This document shows positions 7,464 through 21,830 of a DNA stretch of 32,426 bases, one piece after another. How positions within the stretch are numbered: the stretch's first letter is position 1; every line of letters starts with the position of its first letter. The translations under genes and the position numbers were made by a program. The notes under the pieces are model-generated. The model was not told where the DNA came from, ran no database searches, and saw only the letters and a program-made list of their open reading frames with translations. The stretch is from a virus: positions 1-32,426 of IMG/VR virus record IMGVR_UViG_3300006077_000018. The stretch is one strand, 5' to 3'.

Positions 7464-8272
7464 TTGATGATTTACTAGAAAAACTTAAATATAAAAGAGA
7501 ACCATATGATAAAAGAATTTCATCTACGATGTTAAATCGAGAGCCACTAGAATTAGTTATGAGTGTAGCTCATTGTAATGAACAATTAGAGAATTTTAGT
7601 CAAGCAACATTTGGTTCACTGGTGCATAAAGGGTTAGAGTCGTTATTTAAAGATGATAATACATATAACCCTGAAGTAGAGGTTGAATATGAAGATGAAG
7701 ATTATAGATTAACATCTACTATAGATTTAATTGAATATGAAGAAATAACAGAATGTGGTGGTGAGGATTGTGCAGTAATCAATAGACCAATAGCATTTTA
7801 TGACTGGAAAACAACAAAACATTTTACAGTTAAAAAGCTGATTGAAAATATTGAAAAAGGTAATTTACTTGATAATGATTATATATTGCAACTAAACTTT
7901 AGTAGATATATTTGGGCTAATAAATATGGAGAGTTAATCAATAATCTATATCTAGTATTTCTATTAAAAGATGGTGGTTGGGACTATAGAAGTAAACTCA
8001 AAAAAGAAGATATTAAAATAGTTAAAATACCTACTATTGACTTTAAAGAGATTGAACAAAAGATTAATACAACTAAAGAGTTGCTAGATAATTATATTGA
8101 TTTTGATGCAAAAGAAGTTAAATCTTATCCTGAACAATGCGATGCTAAGTATGGATTTATTACATACAAAGATGGCTCTAAGAAAAGTAGTAAATGTGCT
8201 TTATATTGTAGTTATAAAAATATTTGTCCTAAATATTATGAAAGTGATACTCCAAAAGGTCTGGAATGGTAA
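7457..8272 (+). CDS. PD-(D/E)XK nuclease, Cas4/RecB-like with Fe-S cysteines, 271 aa
   Basis: Motifs seen in order: FGSLVHKGLE with H57 and E61 (the G..vH...E motif of RecB/Cas4 nucleases), TIDLIEY with D90, YDWKTTK with D116 and K118, and QLNFSRY near 145-150 (the QxxxY motif). One cysteine at C40 plus C247, C251 and C257 reproduces the one-plus-three pattern that holds a [4Fe-4S] cluster in Cas4 and AddB/AdnB. Together these indicate a DNA exonuclease that resects ends to give single strands for the Sak4/SSB annealing route. No cas genes or CRISPR array were seen, so a recombination exonuclease is the better reading. The start has AAAAGGAAAAACA upstream. The 3' end overlaps the RusA-like gene by 7 nt. 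Confidence 0.75.
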   Translation: MLIDDLLEKLKYKREPYDKRISSTMLNREPLELVMSVAHCNEQLENFSQATFGSLVHKGLESLFKDDNTYNPEVEVEYEDEDYRLTSTIDLIEYEEITECGGEDCAVINRPIAFYDWKTTKHFTVKKLIENIEKGNLLDNDYILQLNFSRYIWANKYGELINNLYLVFLLKDGGWDYRSKLKKEDIKIVKIPTIDFKEIEQKINTTKELLDNYIDFDAKEVKSYPEQCDAKYGFITYKDGSKKSSKCALYCSYKNICPKYYESDTPKGLEW

Positions 8273-8655
8273 TTAAAATACCATATCCAAAAATTAAAAT
8301 ATCAGGAGTTAAGAAACCTCAAAATTTAACTTTAAATAATTATATGAAAGCACATTGGGCTACATTATCAAAGTTCAAAATGGAATTCAAAAATCAATTA
8401 AAAGAGTGGTATATACCAAAGCCAACAGAGCAATATAAATCACTAGAGATTACTTGTAAAATAATCTATAGAAAGCATATAGATGCTATCAATGTTGCTT
8501 TGGTTCTTAAGATTGTAGAAGATGTTTTAACTGATATTGGTTATGTAAAAGATGATAAATACAATAGAATCATTTTAGAGCCAACAAATGTTGATAAAGA
8601 GTATAAAGACCCTATTATAGAGTTAGATATAAGAGGAGTAAGTGATGCAAATTGA
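8266..8655 (+). CDS. RusA-like Holliday-junction resolvase, 129 aa
   Basis: Size and layout match RusA-family endodeoxyribonucleases (~120-140 aa). Residues 69-97 (RKHIDAIN, K82, VEDVLTDIGYVKDD with D96-D97) correspond to the family's R.D.DN...K...D.L...G...DD pattern of metal-binding acidic residues. The first acid is shifted: D73 and N76 are separated by two residues. RusA dimers cut four-way junctions made during recombination and replication, which fits the preceding recombination genes. The ATG overlaps the nuclease stop. No strong RBS is visible, suggesting coupled translation. The 3' end overlaps the next gene. Confidence 0.65.
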   Translation: MVIKIPYPKIKISGVKKPQNLTLNNYMKAHWATLSKFKMEFKNQLKEWYIPKPTEQYKSLEITCKIIYRKHIDAINVALVLKIVEDVLTDIGYVKDDKYNRIILEPTNVDKEYKDPIIELDIRGVSDAN

Positions 8656-13529: not shown

Positions 13530-13536
13530 TCAATAA

Positions 13537-13554
13537 AGAGCCAGTGTTGGCTCT
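13537..13554 (+). terminator. Hairpin terminator built from paired GAGCCA/TGGCTC motifs
   Basis: AGAGCCA (13537-13543), loop GTGT, TGGCTCT (13548-13554): a perfect 7-bp stem just after the last early gene, followed by ATTAAATATTTT. The U-tract is weak. The 3' arm also contributes TTGGCT, which sits at -35 distance from the next promoter. Confidence 0.6.
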
Positions 13555-13583
13555 ATTAAATATTTTATGATATAATTACTTTA
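13547..13583 (+). promoter_or_regulatory. Sigma-70-type promoter with extended -10
   Basis: TGATATAAT (13568-13576) gives an exact TATAAT with the TGn extension and T-rich sequence before it. TTGGCT at 13547-13552 lies 18 nt upstream as a possible -35. The predicted transcript starts around 13582-13584, exactly where the 26-bp hairpin begins. This is the best promoter match in the window. Confidence 0.65.
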
Positions 13584-13738
13584 GAACATTTAAAGAAGAT
13601 ACAATGAACACAGGTTTTCCCAAGCACCTTCATAGCATTGTATCTTCTTTAAGTGTTTTAATCTAAGAGAAGCTTGGGAACTTCACTTAAATACTCACAC
13701 TTTAAAGATAACCAAATTTCAAGCTCCTGAAAGTTATT
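13581..13738 (+). ncRNA. Structured leader RNA: 26-bp hairpin, pseudoknot and possible 20-aa uORF
   Basis: Bases 13581-13606 pair with 13636-13661 over 26 positions with only two G-U wobbles and no mismatch. The 29-nt loop can form a 4-bp inner stem (AGGT 13612-13615 with ACCT 13626-13629). Its apex TTCCCAAGC (13617-13625) is perfectly complementary to GCTTGGGAA (13672-13680), downstream of the stem, giving a pseudoknot. TTTAAGTG (13648-13655) can instead pair with CACTTAAA (13684-13691), opening the base of the long stem: a possible switch. A short ORF starts at ATG 13604 (MNTGFPKHLHSIVSSLSVLI, stop 13664-13666). A small TTTCA/TGAAA hairpin (13717-13732) sits just before the next gene's start. 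It could be a regulatory leader or an independent sRNA; no known RNA family was recognised. Confidence 0.55.
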
Positions 13739-14275
13739 ATGAATGAATTAATCAAATTAACTTCAACAGAAGTAAATAAAAAATTTATAAAAAAAGAAAC
13801 TAATAGAATTTATGAATTAGTATATAATAGTATATACTTGAATTCATCTTATTCAAAAGAAGATTGTGAGCATATAGCTAATACTGTTAGTGAACTTTTT
13901 AATACAACATTAAATGAGAGTATAAAAAAATACAACGAATTACAATCAAAAGAACTAATAGAGTTATTAATGGGTTCAATGAAAGAAGATAAAAATAAAA
14001 AAAGTAAATCTTTTAAAACTTATTTGGCTCACAGTCATAATGATATTTATAAAATTGGAAAAACTTCTCAGGAAAATATAGAAAAAAGAATTAATGAAAT
14101 TCAATCACCTTATAAATTACAGATTGTCGCTGTATGTAGTAAAGATGTTGAAAATGAATTACACAAAAAATATCATTCGAAACGATTAAATGGTGAATAT
14201 TTTAAATTATCATATGAAGATATTCAAGATATTAAGTTTAAATTTGAAAAATTAAATATTATGAAGATAGATTAG
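13739..14275 (+). CDS. T5orf172/GIY-YIG-superfamily protein, 178 aa
   Basis: The C-terminal ~85 residues match the T5orf172 (MUG113-like) branch of the GIY-YIG superfamily: TYLAHS at 94-99 (GIY equivalent), IYKIGKT at 103-109 (YIG equivalent), KRINEIQ with R117, ENELHKKYH with E140 and H142, and NGEYFKLS at 151-158. The N-terminal ~90 residues are helical with no known DNA-binding domain; KilA-N or Bro domains, often fused to T5orf172, were not seen. Members are thought to be DNA nucleases or regulators of phage development. The gene has its own promoter and long structured leader, slightly more AT-rich composition than its neighbours, no strong SD (GAAAGTTATT), and a private terminator. This suggests an accessory or mobile gene. 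Confidence 0.7.
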   Translation: MNELIKLTSTEVNKKFIKKETNRIYELVYNSIYLNSSYSKEDCEHIANTVSELFNTTLNESIKKYNELQSKELIELLMGSMKEDKNKKSKSFKTYLAHSHNDIYKIGKTSQENIEKRINEIQSPYKLQIVAVCSKDVENELHKKYHSKRLNGEYFKLSYEDIQDIKFKFEKLNIMKID

Positions 14276-14299
14276 CAGAACTTAAATCTAGCTAATAAA

Positions 14300-14316
14300 G
14301 AGCCAGTTACTGGCTC
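14300..14316. terminator. Bidirectional terminator between the converging arms
   Basis: GAGCCAG (14300-14306), loop TTA, CTGGCTC (14310-14316): a perfect 7-bp stem placed between convergent genes, with A-rich sequence on the left (AATAAA) and T-rich sequence on the right. The loop TTA is the TAA stop of the 2507-aa gene on the minus strand, so the hairpin overlaps the end of that gene. Confidence 0.65.
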
Positions 14317-17300
14317 CTTACTTTCTTTAAATCTGTTAATAATCCGAAATCAACTAAATTACTAGGGTGTGTAATTAAATTATATGCTAAGAAATTATCT
14401 AATATAGAACTATCACTAGCTAATGGTGAACTCATAGAGAATGGAAGCATACTCTCAATATAAACAGCTTCATCTTCATCTACTTTAGCAAATCCATTAT
14501 CCATATACCACTCATATTTCTTTTCATCTCCATCGTCCCAAGTCATATTGGTTCTAGGTAGTACCGCCATTAAAGCTAAACCACCAGAGCCAATCCATTT
14601 GTTTTGGTCTACTGCATATAACGCCATCTTAGGTATATTGAACATATACTTAGTAAATGGACTAAATGCATCTATAACTGCTACACCAGTAGGTAAGTTG
14701 TAGTATGTAGGGAATGCCATTAAAACCTTTTGAGTAGCTAAATCTTTACTACCAGTTTTTTCTAGCTCTTGTAAGTATAGAGCTAGTTTAGGATATAGCT
14801 CCGTACTATCAAATATTGTACCAAGAGTAGAACCTATTTTTGTACTAGGGTCTGCCATTAACATCTTATATGCGTTACCAGCATCATTGCCAAATAAATC
14901 TCCTAACTTCTTAGCTATTAGATTTTCCTCAAATGTACCTAAATGATATGCATCAGTACGAATTGTAGCATTAAGTCCAAACTTGAATATATGATGCATA
15001 TGGTGGTCCTCTAGTGCTTTTAATTCTACTGAATAATCAACACCATCTATTTGCTTTTGTACTACATCTGCTAGTAATGCTTTATATTCATTTAAATCTT
15101 TTTTAGCTTTATACATATAATGAACAACATTACCTCTAGTGTGCAATCCAAGTATAATCATATTAGATGCGAAGTTGTTTATATATGTTTTCATATGATA
15201 AAGCAATATAGGTGTCTTCAAGCTCTTAGTTAATTCAACTGTATATTTAAGTATATTACATATAAATTTACCAACATCTTTACCAAACACTTGCTTACTC
15301 ATCTTATATACATCAAAACCTTTTGTACCATTAATATAGTGAGCATACTGCTTATTAAAGTAATGACCTTTATAGCTATTACCTAATGGGTGCTTATTGT
15401 TAATTCTAGTGTACTTAGCTTGAACATCTACTGGTAACTCTCTAAGTTCTTCTTTGGTAATAAGTATGCCTTGTTGCTTAAGAATATTAAATGCTTCAAA
15501 TGCAATCTTTCCACCAAAGTGGTCGTATTGTCTAGTATAAAAATTTCTAGTTGCCATTCTAGTGAAAGATGTATCTACTAACTCATTGCTTGTTCTAATA
15601 TTTTCAGGCTTTAAAAACATCTCTATTTTATTACCATTCTCATTTTTACCTTTAACTCTAAAAATACCTTTTTGAGCCATCTTAGGTTCAAAGTCAATAA
15701 TGTTACTCTCTTGATTACCAAGATGGTATTGTTGATGTTTATCTTTTGAAATAACATAGTATTTGCTTTTACCTTTATATACAGTACCAACAATATGTTC
15801 TTTCTTTATATCACCTGTTTTGCTTTCAGGAACAAGCTTTAAATATCTATTAGATAAATCAACACTAGGATTGGCTCCGAATAATGTTTGATTGTTTTTA
15901 AATCTATTCCAGATAGGTAATGCTTCATCTATCATAGTATCAAAATCATCATATTTAGCTTTCTTGCTAAACAACTTACCAATAGACTCATTCCACATAT
16001 TAGTCTTAGCATTAGCACTTAACGCATCGTGAACTTTACCAGTCTTTGTCGATTGCTTTTGACCATTAATTAAATAGTATGTAGCTTTCATCTCTACATA
16101 GTCTTTAAGGTCTTTAACTTTATTTATATTATTTATAGGATTTTCTCCTAACTGCTTAATCAGCTTCTTAGCTATTGCATCAGGAGATGATTTACCTTTA
16201 TATGCTAAATCACTAATAGACTTTTCAAATCTATCTATAATCTTATTAGCCATAGCATCATCTTGTACGATGTCGTATATCTTATTCTTTAAATCAATGG
16301 TTAGACCTCTAGTATGCTCATTTATTTTAGATATAAACTCATTACTTGTTTTACTATCTTTGAATAGATTAGCAAAATTATGTAATCCTAATTTAAAGAA
16401 ATTACCTAGAGTCTTATCTGCATTTTCATCTTGATATTTAGAAATCATTTCATTAATCTTTTTATTAAATTCAGCAGTTGAATTACTAAGCTCTTGGTCA
16501 AAACCATCTTTAAGAGCCATAGCTTTTATTAATGCTTCTTTCTTAGGATTAACTGCAAATGTTTCAAATAGACTAAGTTCAGTTATATCATTAAATATAT
16601 TTGCAATCTTATTAGGGTCTTTAAACATTTTAGAGCCAACTACTTCAGCAACATTAAATCCTATAGGCTTATTGCCTTTAATAGTAGTCTGGAACTCATC
16701 AGGTTTAGTTTTATTTATCCAACCAATAATTGTAGGGTTAGAATTAATCTCACCAGTTACTTTAATAGCTACATCATCTAGTTGGCTCTTATATAATTGT
16801 TTCATATCTTTATCAGCTATAGAGTCTATTAAATCAATTAAATGGTAAATTGAACTAAACTCTCTACCATTTGCATCATATAGTCTTAACTTATCTATTT
16901 CAGCTTTTAAATCCTTAGTACCAAATATCTTTGCAAACTTACTAGGATTAGTCCTAATCATATCTGCTAATAGTAATCTTTCAACAACTTGTGCTAGTTT
17001 CTCTTTAAATACTTCAGCTTCTTTACCATTAGATAGTTTATTGCCTTTACTATCTGTTAGAGAGCCAATATTAGCTTCAAAGAATTGTTTTAATTCATTA
17101 TGTGTACCATCAGTTGCGATGTGCGTTAATTCGTGTAATAGCTTTTGCATTTTAACTACATCTATCTTTTCGTGGAAATCAAAATCCATAGTTGCCATAC
17201 TTTCAACCCTAACTGCATCTGAACTTTTAGCACCTTTTTCAAAGAATAGTTTTACATTTTTAATAACTGCATTAGATACTTTAATAACACCATTAGATAG

Positions 17301-20300
17301 ATTAGAGATAAATGTAGCTTCAGTAGGCTCTACATCTTTTAAGTCATTATCTTTAAATACTTTAGTTTCAATACTTTCAGCGTGTAAAGAGTTAGTTGGC
17401 TCTGGAATATCTTTATTGCTAGTAGCTTCTTTAACGGTAGATTTAACTTCATCATTACCATTATAGTATTGTGCTATCTCTTCAATATCTTTAATATTAT
17501 CTTTATTACTATCAACATCTAATTTCTTAGATTTAATTTCAGTAGCTAAATCATCAACACTATTCCTACTAAAATCTTCTTCTATTTTATTTTTCTCTCT
17601 AGTAATAGCTTCTTTAGTGATAACTTTATCTCTACTTCTTAAACTTTGTTCAGCTAACCAGTTAATTGCTTCTGCTTCTGTTTTATCTTTATGAGCCACT
17701 ATCTCGCTTAGATTGTCTGTGTTCTCGTTAATAGTTTCTTCCATTCTGTAGTATGGATTGGTTCTCTTATCTTTGTAAATAACACCTACAACATCATTTG
17801 CTGTCTTTGCGTTTTCTGCTATATGTATTGGGTTTCCAACGAATGCGTCCCATAATGATACAACTGGTTTATCTCCATTAACAGTCTTAGTAATCTGCAT
17901 AATAGAACTATCATTACTAATTGTATATAACGGTTGAAAAGTATGAATTACAGTTGGTGAACCAAAGTTCTCTTTGTTCTTAAAGTCATATCCTGCATAG
18001 CCTTTAAAACCTATCATAGGTACTTTATTGTATCCATTAGATATATAAGGTATCATAGACTTAAGAGTACTGTGGTTCATTATCTGTGAGTTAATTTCAA
18101 CATTAGAGCCAAGAGTGTCTATAATATCTCTCATAGAGTATGTATCATTATCTTTAAATGATGCTTTAATCTCTTTCTTTAAAGACTCATCTTTAACATT
18201 TAGAATATCAAAGAACTCATCTAGTTGTATCTCAACACTCTGTTTATTAAATTGTTTTCTGTGATATTTAATTGCAAAATCAGCTTGTACCATTTTAGAT
18301 ACTTTTTTCATACTGTTTCTATAATCAAGTACCTCTTTAGGGAATATCTTTTTAACAGCAGATTTAATAGGCATATGGTATTTAGCAGATAATATATTTA
18401 TAAAATCCTCTTTAGCTACAAGTGGTATATCCTTTTTATTTACTATAGCATCATATACTACACTAGAGTTAAATATAGATGACATCTTTCTAGCTTCATT
18501 ACCAAGCTTATCTTTTAACTGTTTCTTGTGTTCAGCAATATCTTTACCAACAGTAAACTTATTTTTACTAACTAAGTAATCAAAGAATACACCATCAATA
18601 GTTTTATTCTTTTTCTTAGGTTTATATTTCTTAGGGTCAAAGTTATCTATTTTCTCATATACTTTATTTAAAATATCTCCAAATGTTCTATCTTCTATTT
18701 TAATATCAGAATCTTTTAGAATATTCATAGTATCTTCTAGCATACCATTTAATCTACTTAACTCTTTTTCAGATAAAACACCTTTACTATCTGTAGCTAA
18801 ATCTTTTAGCATATTACTTACTGCACCCTCTATTGGTGCTAAATCAACATCTTTACTAGTAGCAATAGCTAATCTAGCATTATCAAGTATAGTTCTAGCT
18901 ACAGACTTAGAAGCTTCATATTCAGTTGCATTATTAAGTAATGCAATAAAGGCAGTTTTAACATCTCCTCTTGATAGAGCCAATCCTTCGTTATTAAGTG
19001 TATTTGCAAACTCTGTATAGAAGTCATCTATATTTGCCTTTGGAGTAGAGCCAATACCTACTCTACTATCAGTTAATCCTAAACCAGCTAATGTAACACC
19101 AAATCCATTGTTGATACCATCTAGCTCTGCCGTAATATGCATTGGCTCTTTGAAGCCTTTAGCTTCATTATCAGCAAATCTAACAACTTCTCTCATAAGA
19201 AAATCATTTAGTATCCCATCATCATATTTTGTAAAACCTTTACTTCCAAAGATATTTACATTTCCAGATTTACAAGCTTTTACTAATTGATTAAATGCTT
19301 CATTAACTTCTAAATCGTTCATATGCACAGGTTTAGCACCAAACAACTCTAAATAACTTCTCTTAGCTATATTTAAGCCTTTAGCTTTATCATCTAATGA
19401 AAGTTTAGATACATCAAATTTAGTACCTTTTATTTTGAAGATATATCTACCAAGTTTAGTTTGTGGATTAATCAATCCCTCATATCTCCATCTAGTTTCT
19501 CCTGAATATGATACATCAAAGTAAAATTCATTTTTACCGCTTTTAGTTAATGCATATAATCCCTCTAGCTCCTGCTTATAATTCTTTGTCATAGTCTTGT
19601 ATGTTTCTTTTAAATCATCAGGTAAATCTCTTAAAGCTTTTCTGATTTCAGATAAACTCATATCTCTAAATGCAGGAACTTGCATTTGTAAAATATATGT
19701 TGATATACCAGTCTTTTCATCAATAGATGATGTAATCTTTTTAAGAGTATTATCAATATCTTTTACTGCTCCATCGTTTACTTCAAAAGGAGTATTAGCT
19801 TCTTTCTCTAATAAATCATACTTACTCTTTTCAATAGGAGCTTTAATTTTAATCTTTACATCTTTAGAACTTGTGTGTATTGCATTTTTATCTTCAGCAG
19901 GTACATAGCCTCTGAAATCTTCATTTAACTCTCTAGCTAAATTACCGTCTATATCTTCATAGTTTTTAAGATAGTATCTCTCTACATTATCTGTATCTTT
20001 TACTACACCAAGTAATCCATTTTCTTCATTTAGCTTTTTAATATCTTCGGCTAACTGTTTTACTATATGTTCTTTTTTAACATTTTTAGTGTCAATACCT
20101 AGTAGGTCCACAGTCTTTTGAGCTATCTTCTTATATAACTTATCTGTAGATAAACCTTTTGTATCTTTAGACTCTAAACTTTGAACCAATGCTGTTTTAA
20201 TAGCTTCTTTAGTATGGTCATTAAAATCAACTTTAGTTACTGTAGTTTCATTTTTAATAGGTTTACTAGTATCAGGGTCAATAGTTGGTTCTGATTTAGT

Positions 20301-21830
20301 TTCAAACATAGATAGGTAACCACTATCTTCTTTACTCATAGCACTTGTTTGTTTAAATGACTCTTCAGATTTTAAAGATACATCGGGGTCATTTATTTTA
20401 TTTTTAGTTTCAACTATCTTTTTTAGTGGTTCAGGAAGTTTAGCAGTATCTAATGCATCTTTTTTAGCAGTAAGTATTTGATTAACTACATTAGTCTTTA
20501 CATTCTCACCAGTATTGATACCATTATGGTCTTTAATTGCTGACTGCATAGCTTCTAAATCTTTCTTGTTCTTTACATCATCTATAGATGTTAAACCTCT
20601 TTTATCAACTGGTGAAAAATCACCTTTATCATTAAAGTTAAATTCATAACTTTCTAGTTCGTGATACTTTGAAGCATTAGGATTATCAGCTTTAGTAGCT
20701 TTAGCTTCTCCAGCTTTTATTAAAGTAGTTGGCTCTAATAATAGTTTATCTCCAATTTTTAATTTATATGCTTTATCTTTTAAATTAGATTTCTTAACAT
20801 CTAATCTTAGAGAGCCATCTACTTCTGTACCTTTCATAGTACCAAGAGCATCTGATTTAATAATGAATTTATCGCCATCTTTAATTGCATATGATTTAGA
20901 TTTTTTAATTCTCTTAGCTACCATCTCTTTTATTTCAGGAGTCATACCAGTTAAATCTATCAATCCATTATTGTCTATAGAACCTTTTAATACTTCATTC
21001 ATTTCAGGGTCTTCTAGTAGACTTTTGTTAATTACTGCGTTATGTTCTGCACCAAGATTTACATTAACAGCATCTGCACTATTAACTTGCTTAACTAAGT
21101 TTTTTCTAATACCTATTTTAGATACAGTTGAACCAATAGCTCTACCAGCAAGTTCAGGAGCAGTACCCATTGCAAATTCACCAGCAAATGCTTTACCAAA
21201 TGATTTTAAATCTCTAGCCGTATGTGCTTGTTCTCCAATACTATCTGTTTGTGTCATATCAGATACTGCACCAATACCAGCATATGTAGTATTTTCAGCC
21301 AAGAAACCTTTTGCACCTTGCATTAAAGTTTTATCAACACCATCTGTTAATATTTTCTCTGCTTTCTCTAATGACTTAGTAGCCATTTGTTGAGCCAACT
21401 TCTTGCTTTCAGTTTTAAAACCTACACTAGCTAACATTCTAGGAGCAGTAGCTCTAGCAACATTAGCTAATCCACCAGTACCAACACCTACTAATGTTTG
21501 TGTACCAACATCAAGTAACGATTGAGATGCACCTACCATTGAACTACCATTTTGTAATTGCTCCATAGTGTTAAAGTTTTCTGCTTGTTTAGCCTTAACT
21601 TGGTCGCTATCATCACTAAGCCATTGATATAATGTTTGGTCTGCATTCTCCATTGTCCCATTAAAGGTATCAGCTACTGCTTGACCATAACCTCTATCGT
21701 GTTGATATTCAGCTGTGCCAACTAGCCCACCGATAGCATTATTCATATCTCTATATTTTGACTCATAAGTTTTTTTAACCCCATAGTCTAATAAATCTTT
21801 TAAATTAAAGTCTGTATCTTTTTCTTGCAT
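14307..21830 (-). CDS. Giant internal virion / polyvalent protein with zincin motif, 2507 aa
   Basis: The last and largest gene of the structural operon. The N-terminal ~260 residues contain Gly/Ala-rich weakly hydrophobic helices (VGVGTGGLANVARA, AGIGAVSDMTQ), as in proteins ejected into the host envelope. The middle is long, charged and mixed. A zinc metalloprotease motif HELTH lies at H1566-E1567-x-x-H1570, in a helix typical of zincins. The final ~350 residues (NNFASNMIILGLHTRG, AYHLGTFEENLIAKKLGD, YPKLALYLQELEKTGS, INAFSPFTKY-like) recall the C-terminal domain shared by phage large polyvalent and internal core proteins. By position it corresponds to T7 gp16. The RBS AAAGGAG lies 8 nt before the ATG. 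The hallmark motifs of N4 virion RNA polymerase were not visible. Ejection with the DNA is inferred. Confidence 0.65.
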   Translation of the reverse strand: MQEKDTDFNLKDLLDYGVKKTYESKYRDMNNAIGGLVGTAEYQHDRGYGQAVADTFNGTMENADQTLYQWLSDDSDQVKAKQAENFNTMEQLQNGSSMVGASQSLLDVGTQTLVGVGTGGLANVARATAPRMLASVGFKTESKKLAQQMATKSLEKAEKILTDGVDKTLMQGAKGFLAENTTYAGIGAVSDMTQTDSIGEQAHTARDLKSFGKAFAGEFAMGTAPELAGRAIGSTVSKIGIRKNLVKQVNSADAVNVNLGAEHNAVINKSLLEDPEMNEVLKGSIDNNGLIDLTGMTPEIKEMVAKRIKKSKSYAIKDGDKFIIKSDALGTMKGTEVDGSLRLDVKKSNLKDKAYKLKIGDKLLLEPTTLIKAGEAKATKADNPNASKYHELESYEFNFNDKGDFSPVDKRGLTSIDDVKNKKDLEAMQSAIKDHNGINTGENVKTNVVNQILTAKKDALDTAKLPEPLKKIVETKNKINDPDVSLKSEESFKQTSAMSKEDSGYLSMFETKSEPTIDPDTSKPIKNETTVTKVDFNDHTKEAIKTALVQSLESKDTKGLSTDKLYKKIAQKTVDLLGIDTKNVKKEHIVKQLAEDIKKLNEENGLLGVVKDTDNVERYYLKNYEDIDGNLARELNEDFRGYVPAEDKNAIHTSSKDVKIKIKAPIEKSKYDLLEKEANTPFEVNDGAVKDIDNTLKKITSSIDEKTGISTYILQMQVPAFRDMSLSEIRKALRDLPDDLKETYKTMTKNYKQELEGLYALTKSGKNEFYFDVSYSGETRWRYEGLINPQTKLGRYIFKIKGTKFDVSKLSLDDKAKGLNIAKRSYLELFGAKPVHMNDLEVNEAFNQLVKACKSGNVNIFGSKGFTKYDDGILNDFLMREVVRFADNEAKGFKEPMHITAELDGINNGFGVTLAGLGLTDSRVGIGSTPKANIDDFYTEFANTLNNEGLALSRGDVKTAFIALLNNATEYEASKSVARTILDNARLAIATSKDVDLAPIEGAVSNMLKDLATDSKGVLSEKELSRLNGMLEDTMNILKDSDIKIEDRTFGDILNKVYEKIDNFDPKKYKPKKKNKTIDGVFFDYLVSKNKFTVGKDIAEHKKQLKDKLGNEARKMSSIFNSSVVYDAIVNKKDIPLVAKEDFINILSAKYHMPIKSAVKKIFPKEVLDYRNSMKKVSKMVQADFAIKYHRKQFNKQSVEIQLDEFFDILNVKDESLKKEIKASFKDNDTYSMRDIIDTLGSNVEINSQIMNHSTLKSMIPYISNGYNKVPMIGFKGYAGYDFKNKENFGSPTVIHTFQPLYTISNDSSIMQITKTVNGDKPVVSLWDAFVGNPIHIAENAKTANDVVGVIYKDKRTNPYYRMEETINENTDNLSEIVAHKDKTEAEAINWLAEQSLRSRDKVITKEAITREKNKIEEDFSRNSVDDLATEIKSKKLDVDSNKDNIKDIEEIAQYYNGNDEVKSTVKEATSNKDIPEPTNSLHAESIETKVFKDNDLKDVEPTEATFISNLSNGVIKVSNAVIKNVKLFFEKGAKSSDAVRVESMATMDFDFHEKIDVVKMQKLLHELTHIATDGTHNELKQFFEANIGSLTDSKGNKLSNGKEAEVFKEKLAQVVERLLLADMIRTNPSKFAKIFGTKDLKAEIDKLRLYDANGREFSSIYHLIDLIDSIADKDMKQLYKSQLDDVAIKVTGEINSNPTIIGWINKTKPDEFQTTIKGNKPIGFNVAEVVGSKMFKDPNKIANIFNDITELSLFETFAVNPKKEALIKAMALKDGFDQELSNSTAEFNKKINEMISKYQDENADKTLGNFFKLGLHNFANLFKDSKTSNEFISKINEHTRGLTIDLKNKIYDIVQDDAMANKIIDRFEKSISDLAYKGKSSPDAIAKKLIKQLGENPINNINKVKDLKDYVEMKATYYLINGQKQSTKTGKVHDALSANAKTNMWNESIGKLFSKKAKYDDFDTMIDEALPIWNRFKNNQTLFGANPSVDLSNRYLKLVPESKTGDIKKEHIVGTVYKGKSKYYVISKDKHQQYHLGNQESNIIDFEPKMAQKGIFRVKGKNENGNKIEMFLKPENIRTSNELVDTSFTRMATRNFYTRQYDHFGGKIAFEAFNILKQQGILITKEELRELPVDVQAKYTRINNKHPLGNSYKGHYFNKQYAHYINGTKGFDVYKMSKQVFGKDVGKFICNILKYTVELTKSLKTPILLYHMKTYINNFASNMIILGLHTRGNVVHYMYKAKKDLNEYKALLADVVQKQIDGVDYSVELKALEDHHMHHIFKFGLNATIRTDAYHLGTFEENLIAKKLGDLFGNDAGNAYKMLMADPSTKIGSTLGTIFDSTELYPKLALYLQELEKTGSKDLATQKVLMAFPTYYNLPTGVAVIDAFSPFTKYMFNIPKMALYAVDQNKWIGSGGLALMAVLPRTNMTWDDGDEKKYEWYMDNGFAKVDEDEAVYIESMLPFSMSSPLASDSSILDNFLAYNLITHPSNLVDFGLLTDLKKVRSQ

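Follow-up and report, generated by a model that had tools for sequence, protein, structure and literature searches.

Phage leader RNAs with a long hairpin placed directly before its own predicted target, a probable functional counterpart of C4 antisense RNA

The window analysed here, the whole 32,426-nucleotide stretch of the IMG/VR virus record IMGVR_UViG_3300006077_000018, carries on its plus strand an exceptionally long hairpin upstream of a T5orf172 gene, which raises the question of whether this leader is a genuine RNA element and, if so, how it might act on the gene. The stem (stem P1) joins 13581-13606 to 13636-13661 through 26 contiguous pairs (24 Watson-Crick and two G-U) with no mismatch, exactly where the first-pass annotation had placed it, and stands alone in the window, whose next-longest plus-strand hairpin has 14 bp. 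The earlier view that such pairing is hard to obtain by chance was borne out by first-order Markov simulation, the longest stem in 40 simulated windows measuring 13 to 18 bp, and the fold of 13578-13740 (-43.9 kcal/mol, z = -6.25) was equalled by none of 200 shuffles. The inner 4-bp stem proposed earlier is also present (P2, 13612-13629; AGGU at 13612-13615 with ACCU at 13626-13629) and presents the loop segment a', TTCCCAAGC (13617-13625), which pairs at nine of nine positions with the downstream site a, GCTTGGGAA (13672-13680), as had been claimed; each sequence occurs once in the window. A further helix, absent from the earlier description, joins p3' (13630-13635), located between P2 and the 3' arm of stem P1, to p3 (13663-13668), 1 nt past the stem, with five of six positions paired. 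An alternative 8-bp pairing of 13648-13655 with 13684-13691, previously put forward as a competitor of the stem base, does exist in the window, though with a partner that the family does not conserve; conservation is seen instead for a competitor formed by b' (AAGUGU, 13651-13656), within the 3' arm of stem P1, and b (ACACUU, 13697-13702).

Scanning IMG/VR with the loop-target pair alone matched 16 contig stretches, two of which were real (L008 and L011); both retain the pairing with stem letters wholly different from those of the window, and the tandem copy in L011 has the loop TTGCTAAGC and the target GCTTAGCAA, a compensatory change. The remaining elements were recruited with a covariance model (R1) and less stringent patterns, and pattern matches were dropped as chance, as most were, unless the hairpin and an independent complementarity were both present. 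This yielded 13 homologous elements in nine further phage contigs and a total of 14 elements in 10 records, all of them IMG/VR contigs: two elements in L011, four in L131/L145 and one each in the window, L008, L128, L129, L144, L147, L152 and L154. With R1, 12 of the 14 scored 73 to 133 bits, while the top score in 853 kb of unrelated contigs was 25.4 bits; the weakest two, L131b (34.3 bits) and L131c (26.2 bits), were retained on the strength of a loop-target and p3 complementarity that is complete or almost complete and forms no part of R1. The 42.9-kb contig IMGVR_UViG_3300048635_000074 holds four units (L131 9355-9499, 5587-5712 and 6529-6662, and L145 2411-2535, all on the minus strand) with four distinct loop-target pairs and different regulator genes, and the two tandem L011 units (8273-8401 and 8091-8235, both minus strand), which differ in specificity, have just a very short ORF (ATGGCATTAGGCTAA) between them. 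Group I introns were noted in two carriers, one in L154 (8589-8882, minus strand) and two in L008 (4997-5234 and 5628-5889, minus strand), where the structural genes of that stretch seem to be split.

Rfam 15 contained no family reaching its gathering score for the element in the window or in the other carriers tested, the only matches being the group I introns elsewhere in L008 and L154 and chance ones; blastn found no match for the window element among INPHARED phages and only chance matches for the L128 element among phages and plasmids, and an exact-core scan of genome contigs gave unrelated matches only. The T5orf172 relatives L003 to L007 have no such leader, and a match in a Helicobacter prophage (14.9 bits) was discarded, the element being absent there. 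Short-repeat clusters in L012, L013, L014, L015, L017 and L022, of the GCTTGGGAACGAGATGGTGTGAG type and with self-complementary TTCCCAAGC...GCTTGGGAA, were set aside as an interspersed repeat family unrelated to the element. Our search of the open-access literature returned no description of the element and no RNA leader described for T5orf172, MUG113 or GIY-YIG proteins, a domain encoded downstream in the window and, as a GIY-YIG protein, in L144. Neighbouring genes gave no clear answer as to the host, and naming Campylobacterota would be guesswork, based solely on A+T content, the type of promoter and the Malaciobacter and Helicobacter matches.

The elements share a common anatomy. Stem P1 has 19 to 28 bp in all 14, with variable sequence and with one position held by a U-G pair in 14 of 14, and P2, present throughout, is AGGU/ACCU (GGGU/ACCC in L145) and presents loop a'. 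The six nucleotides directly after ACCU form p3', and b' lies near the foot of the 3' arm of stem P1. Past the stem, a gap of 0 to 6 nt leads to p3, followed by a 3-nt linker (RAA in most elements), site a, and a conserved stretch containing b (ACUCACACUWUAAAGAUAAUCAAA across the family; ACTCACACTTTAAAGATAACCAAA in the window). The parts are never found apart, sharing one strand and the same orientation upstream of a gene, so that the predicted antisense hairpin (stem P1, a' and p3') stands directly before the predicted target hairpin (p3, a and b). A phage gene of regulatory type usually follows the putative target, with its start codon 47 to 60 nt past site a (58 nt in the window). The most conserved letters are pairing partners or belong to b. 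A 20-codon ORF starting at ATG 13604 (MNTGFPKHLH...) was rejected as a leader peptide, no comparable start codon being found in L008, L011, L128, L129 and L131.

Pairing is retained across the family while its letters change. Site a pairs with a' in 98 of 98 cells over the 14 elements despite several different loop sequences, a count that is partly conditioned by the initial search patterns, which demanded part of a'/a (later ones left out the variable a' letters). The p3'/p3 result is independent of how the elements were discovered, since p3 was part of no pattern and no model pairing: 79 of 84 cells pair in register, versus 23 to 29 when shifted by 1 or 2 nt and a mean of 36 (maximum 62) in shuffle controls. 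Neither the a'/a nor the p3'/p3 count was reached in 100,000 reassignments, and in stem P1 and a'/a taken together the paired cells made up 92.9%, compared with 74.4% in shuffles and 32-54% in slid registers, with 17 pairs showing two-sided change and 60 two-sided cells against 17.4 in shuffles; the elements being related, these shuffle counts are not strict probabilities. The conserved b'/b helix covaries weakly, with few changes (AAGUGG/CCACUU in L131b, for example). Having looked for homologs that lose the pairing without compensation, we found that the 14 elements favor pairing; their stem and loop-target match persist under changed letters and, at the level of comparative sequence analysis, mark a real phage RNA element.

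The complementarity is also specific to each unit. Predicted duplex energies averaged -21.4 kcal/mol for an antisense segment with its own target and -9.7 kcal/mol with those of other elements, and 13 of the 14 segments ranked their own target first; in the window the self duplex (-17.1 kcal/mol) ranks second because of one p3 mismatch. Within the four-unit contig, self duplexes ranged from -18 to -23 kcal/mol and cross duplexes from -3.7 to -10.9 kcal/mol. By comparison, b'/b showed no self-preference (-7.8 self versus -6.9 cross).

The downstream part has a predicted fold of its own. When the leaders were folded without the 5' arm of stem P1, most gave a three-tier hairpin composed of b'/b, which closes the lower stem, a UUUA/ACUC internal loop, a p3-containing stem, and AAG/CUU, whose loop displays site a. 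The upper part of this common fold spans 13664-13689 in the window, where UAAG (13664-13667) pairs with CUUA (13686-13689) and GAAG (13669-13672) with CUUC (13681-13684). The pairing of p3 with its 3' partner is element-specific, none of 200,000 permutations being as good. Since b' is used by both structures, the antisense and target hairpins would be mutually exclusive at that arm.

The extended -10 sequence noticed earlier (TATGATATAAT, 13566-13576, plus strand) is present and ends 4 nt before stem P1 as a putative promoter; sequences of the same type precede the elements of L008, L131a, L131b and L131c, and a similar -10 sequence, TATCATATAAT, lies upstream of that of L145. With compensatory homologs, no matching Rfam family and this -10 sequence before several copies, the proposal of a new structured RNA standing at its own promoter before the T5orf172 gene is supported. 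On the left, a terminator-like hairpin, AGAGCCAGTGTTGGCTCT (13536-13556, plus strand; -10.8 kcal/mol), followed by a weak T-rich stretch, would end the upstream transcription unit. An exact 14-bp direct repeat, AATAAAGAGCCAGT, has only two copies in the window, one at 13532-13545, inside this hairpin after the upstream gene, and one at 14294-14307, within a second, similar terminator-like hairpin (14294-14318); together they flank the promoter, the RNA and the T5orf172 gene, as expected of an inserted one-gene cassette, and suggest insertion by recombination at terminators. Beyond it, positions 14307-21830 (minus strand) encode a 2507-aa protein with no Pfam match; neither its C-terminal 797 aa nor the portal protein of this virus has a relative in IMG/VR; within the collections searched, the virus is an orphan.

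In the window, the presumed regulated gene (13739-14275, plus strand) encodes a 178-aa GIY-YIG-like protein (Pfam MUG113, 4e-15; T5orf172, 1.5e-8). Antirepressor-type genes are the commonest cargo of the family, with five clear cases, namely AntA+ORF6C in L128, Rha+ANT in L129, Bro-N+ANT in L131a, AntA+ANT in L131c and ORF6C in L152, plus weak matches to KilA-N in L131b and to Rha in L008. No antirepressor gene lies downstream in the window, L011, L147, L144, L154 or L145, and control of antirepressors is thus not universal, given the replication-type HTH proteins of L011b and L147, a gene with no family assigned in L154 and a very short ORF in L145.

The arrangement recalls the C4 RNA of phages P1 and P7 (RF01695; targets c4-a1b1, RF03163). 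The order in phage P1 is promoter, C4 (48343-48419), a2 (48423-48429), b2 (48452-48459) and icd (48470); C4 is processed from a longer transcript, its a' gives specificity while b' partly occludes the ribosome site, and a 4-nt difference sets phage P1 apart from P7 (PMC5320573). The new elements resemble it in having a candidate antisense RNA that lies within the leader of its own presumed target mRNA, two complementary segments (a' and b') with targets directly downstream and before the gene start, a variable a' with a matching target beside a conserved second segment (b in the new elements), antirepressor genes downstream and a promoter of their own, here putative. They differ in fold: C4 has an outer stem enclosing two hairpins, with b' in the loop of the second and a' in the junction, whereas the new elements form a single long hairpin in 14 of 14, whose apical loop carries a' and is extended by p3' and whose stem base contains b', common to the target hairpin. 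They differ further in that transcription apparently begins at the hairpin, so that, unlike C4, they would need no 5' processing by RNase P, and in that one phage may hold up to four units, some before GIY-YIG-like and replication genes. The layout being the same and sequence and fold not, we class the elements as working like C4 and not as RF01695 members; a C4-like principle has apparently arisen convergently, in a different architecture, in phage contigs that are unrelated.

Other leader-encoded or loop-initiated systems offer partial parallels. The CI RNA of phage P4 is a small leader-encoded RNA that pairs with sites on its own transcript and shuts off the operon; it shares with the new elements the complementary sites on one transcript, but it acts through premature transcription termination and has a different fold and gene (a comparison of features). 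In ColE1 RNAI/RNAII and R1 CopA/CopT, the loops of antisense and target hairpins meet first and the duplex then extends into the stems, as proposed here, yet in those systems the partners come from opposite strands of one locus while in the new elements they lie in tandem on one strand.

We therefore propose, as the quite probable reading of these patterns, that the leader functions as an antisense unit directed against itself, in the manner of C4. Transcription would start at the foot of stem P1, and an antisense hairpin of about 80 nt would fold first, holding the b' arm. Freed by 3' processing or partial termination, or still attached, it would pair in trans with the target hairpins of other leader copies, initially by a'/a loop-loop kissing and then by extension into p3'/p3 with displacement of the target's own stem. 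The pairing would repress the downstream gene, in the window the T5orf172/GIY-YIG-like gene of the one-gene cassette between similar terminator-like hairpins, through a block to translation, cleavage of the duplex by RNase III or early termination. Blocking a and p3 in silico left the predicted accessibility of the start codon unchanged, so that folding lends no support to the step that would lead from pairing to gene control, and RNase III cleavage or termination is no less likely a route than direct occlusion. Antisense pairing thus probably lets the leader silence the gene behind it, in many cases one whose product counteracts a phage repressor. The suggestion of a stand-alone sRNA controlling the gene comes close to this reading. 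With specificity set by a' and p3', several units could coexist in one phage. We lean, with less assurance, towards the wider proposal of a new family whose antisense and target hairpins would compete for the shared arm b' and whose diversified letters would let one phage run several insulated circuits over different antirepressor or selfish genes.

The main competitor is a switch in cis, in which a' and p3' would pair with a and p3 of the same molecule, replacing stem P1, and the choice of fold, set by translation, RNA polymerase pausing, a protein or a ligand, would control the gene. The sharing of b' between stem P1 and the target hairpin, which makes the folds mutually exclusive, and the constant co-occurrence of the parts on one strand would suit such a switch. 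Against it, stem P1 with P2 (-23 to -39 kcal/mol) generally outweighs the a'/p3' duplex (-17 to -27 kcal/mol) and forms first, and p3 begins 0 to 6 nt past the stem. An A-form helix of 19 to 28 bp is about 50 to 80 angstroms long, and a pseudoknot formed in cis on a folded stem P1 is sterically implausible with p3 at the foot and a' and p3' at the far end; pairing would need either a second molecule or an opened stem, and on this model pairing in trans is favored, although stem P1 could be opened in cis by polymerase pausing, a helicase or a protein. The pseudoknotted loop of the first-pass annotation is hence probably wrong as a cis fold, its partner lying at the foot of the stem and having a hairpin of its own. 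Nor was the likeness to a riboswitch supported: loop and target letters vary yet stay complementary, the downstream genes differ, and the family shows neither the invariant ligand-binding core nor the consistent metabolic genes that are riboswitch hallmarks. The specificity letters diverge between units even in one phage, which cis pairing does not need and which would be best understood if free antisense RNAs have to be prevented from cross-pairing. We regard a cis switch as unlikely, if still the most serious of the alternatives.

That the elements are C4 RNAs too diverged for the Rfam model seems far less probable: the gene order, tandem self-targets, variable a', conserved b and antirepressor genes are shared, but the fold is unlike that of C4, and the RF01695 model (gathering score 45 bits) found nothing in the window, L128 and L131 records, nor any match at E<=10 around the window element, while recovering phage P1 at 68.8 bits as a control. 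Slightly less credible still is a DNA-level element, such as a cruciform, a recombination site or a protein-binding site of a mobile cassette, for which the length of the inverted repeat and the direct repeats around the window cassette would speak; the constant orientation upstream of a gene, the extended -10 before several copies and an R1 score of 132 bits forward versus 27 bits on the reverse strand point the other way, and neither the invariant U-G pair nor the complementarity of loop with target and of p3 would be meaningful outside single-stranded RNA. A chance or repetitive hairpin without function retains no supporting point after the homolog search and can practically be dismissed, refuted by covariation, own-target preference, the Markov simulations and the gap between R1 scores of elements and of unrelated contigs.

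Phage antirepressors are widespread, and RNA control of them is, to our knowledge, known mainly from a few well-studied phages. The elements described here constitute natural antisense-target pairs, up to four per genome, that are predicted not to cross-react, and they open to direct test the question of whether specificity letters in RNA serve phages as determinants of immunity, which is how phages P1 and P7 use them.
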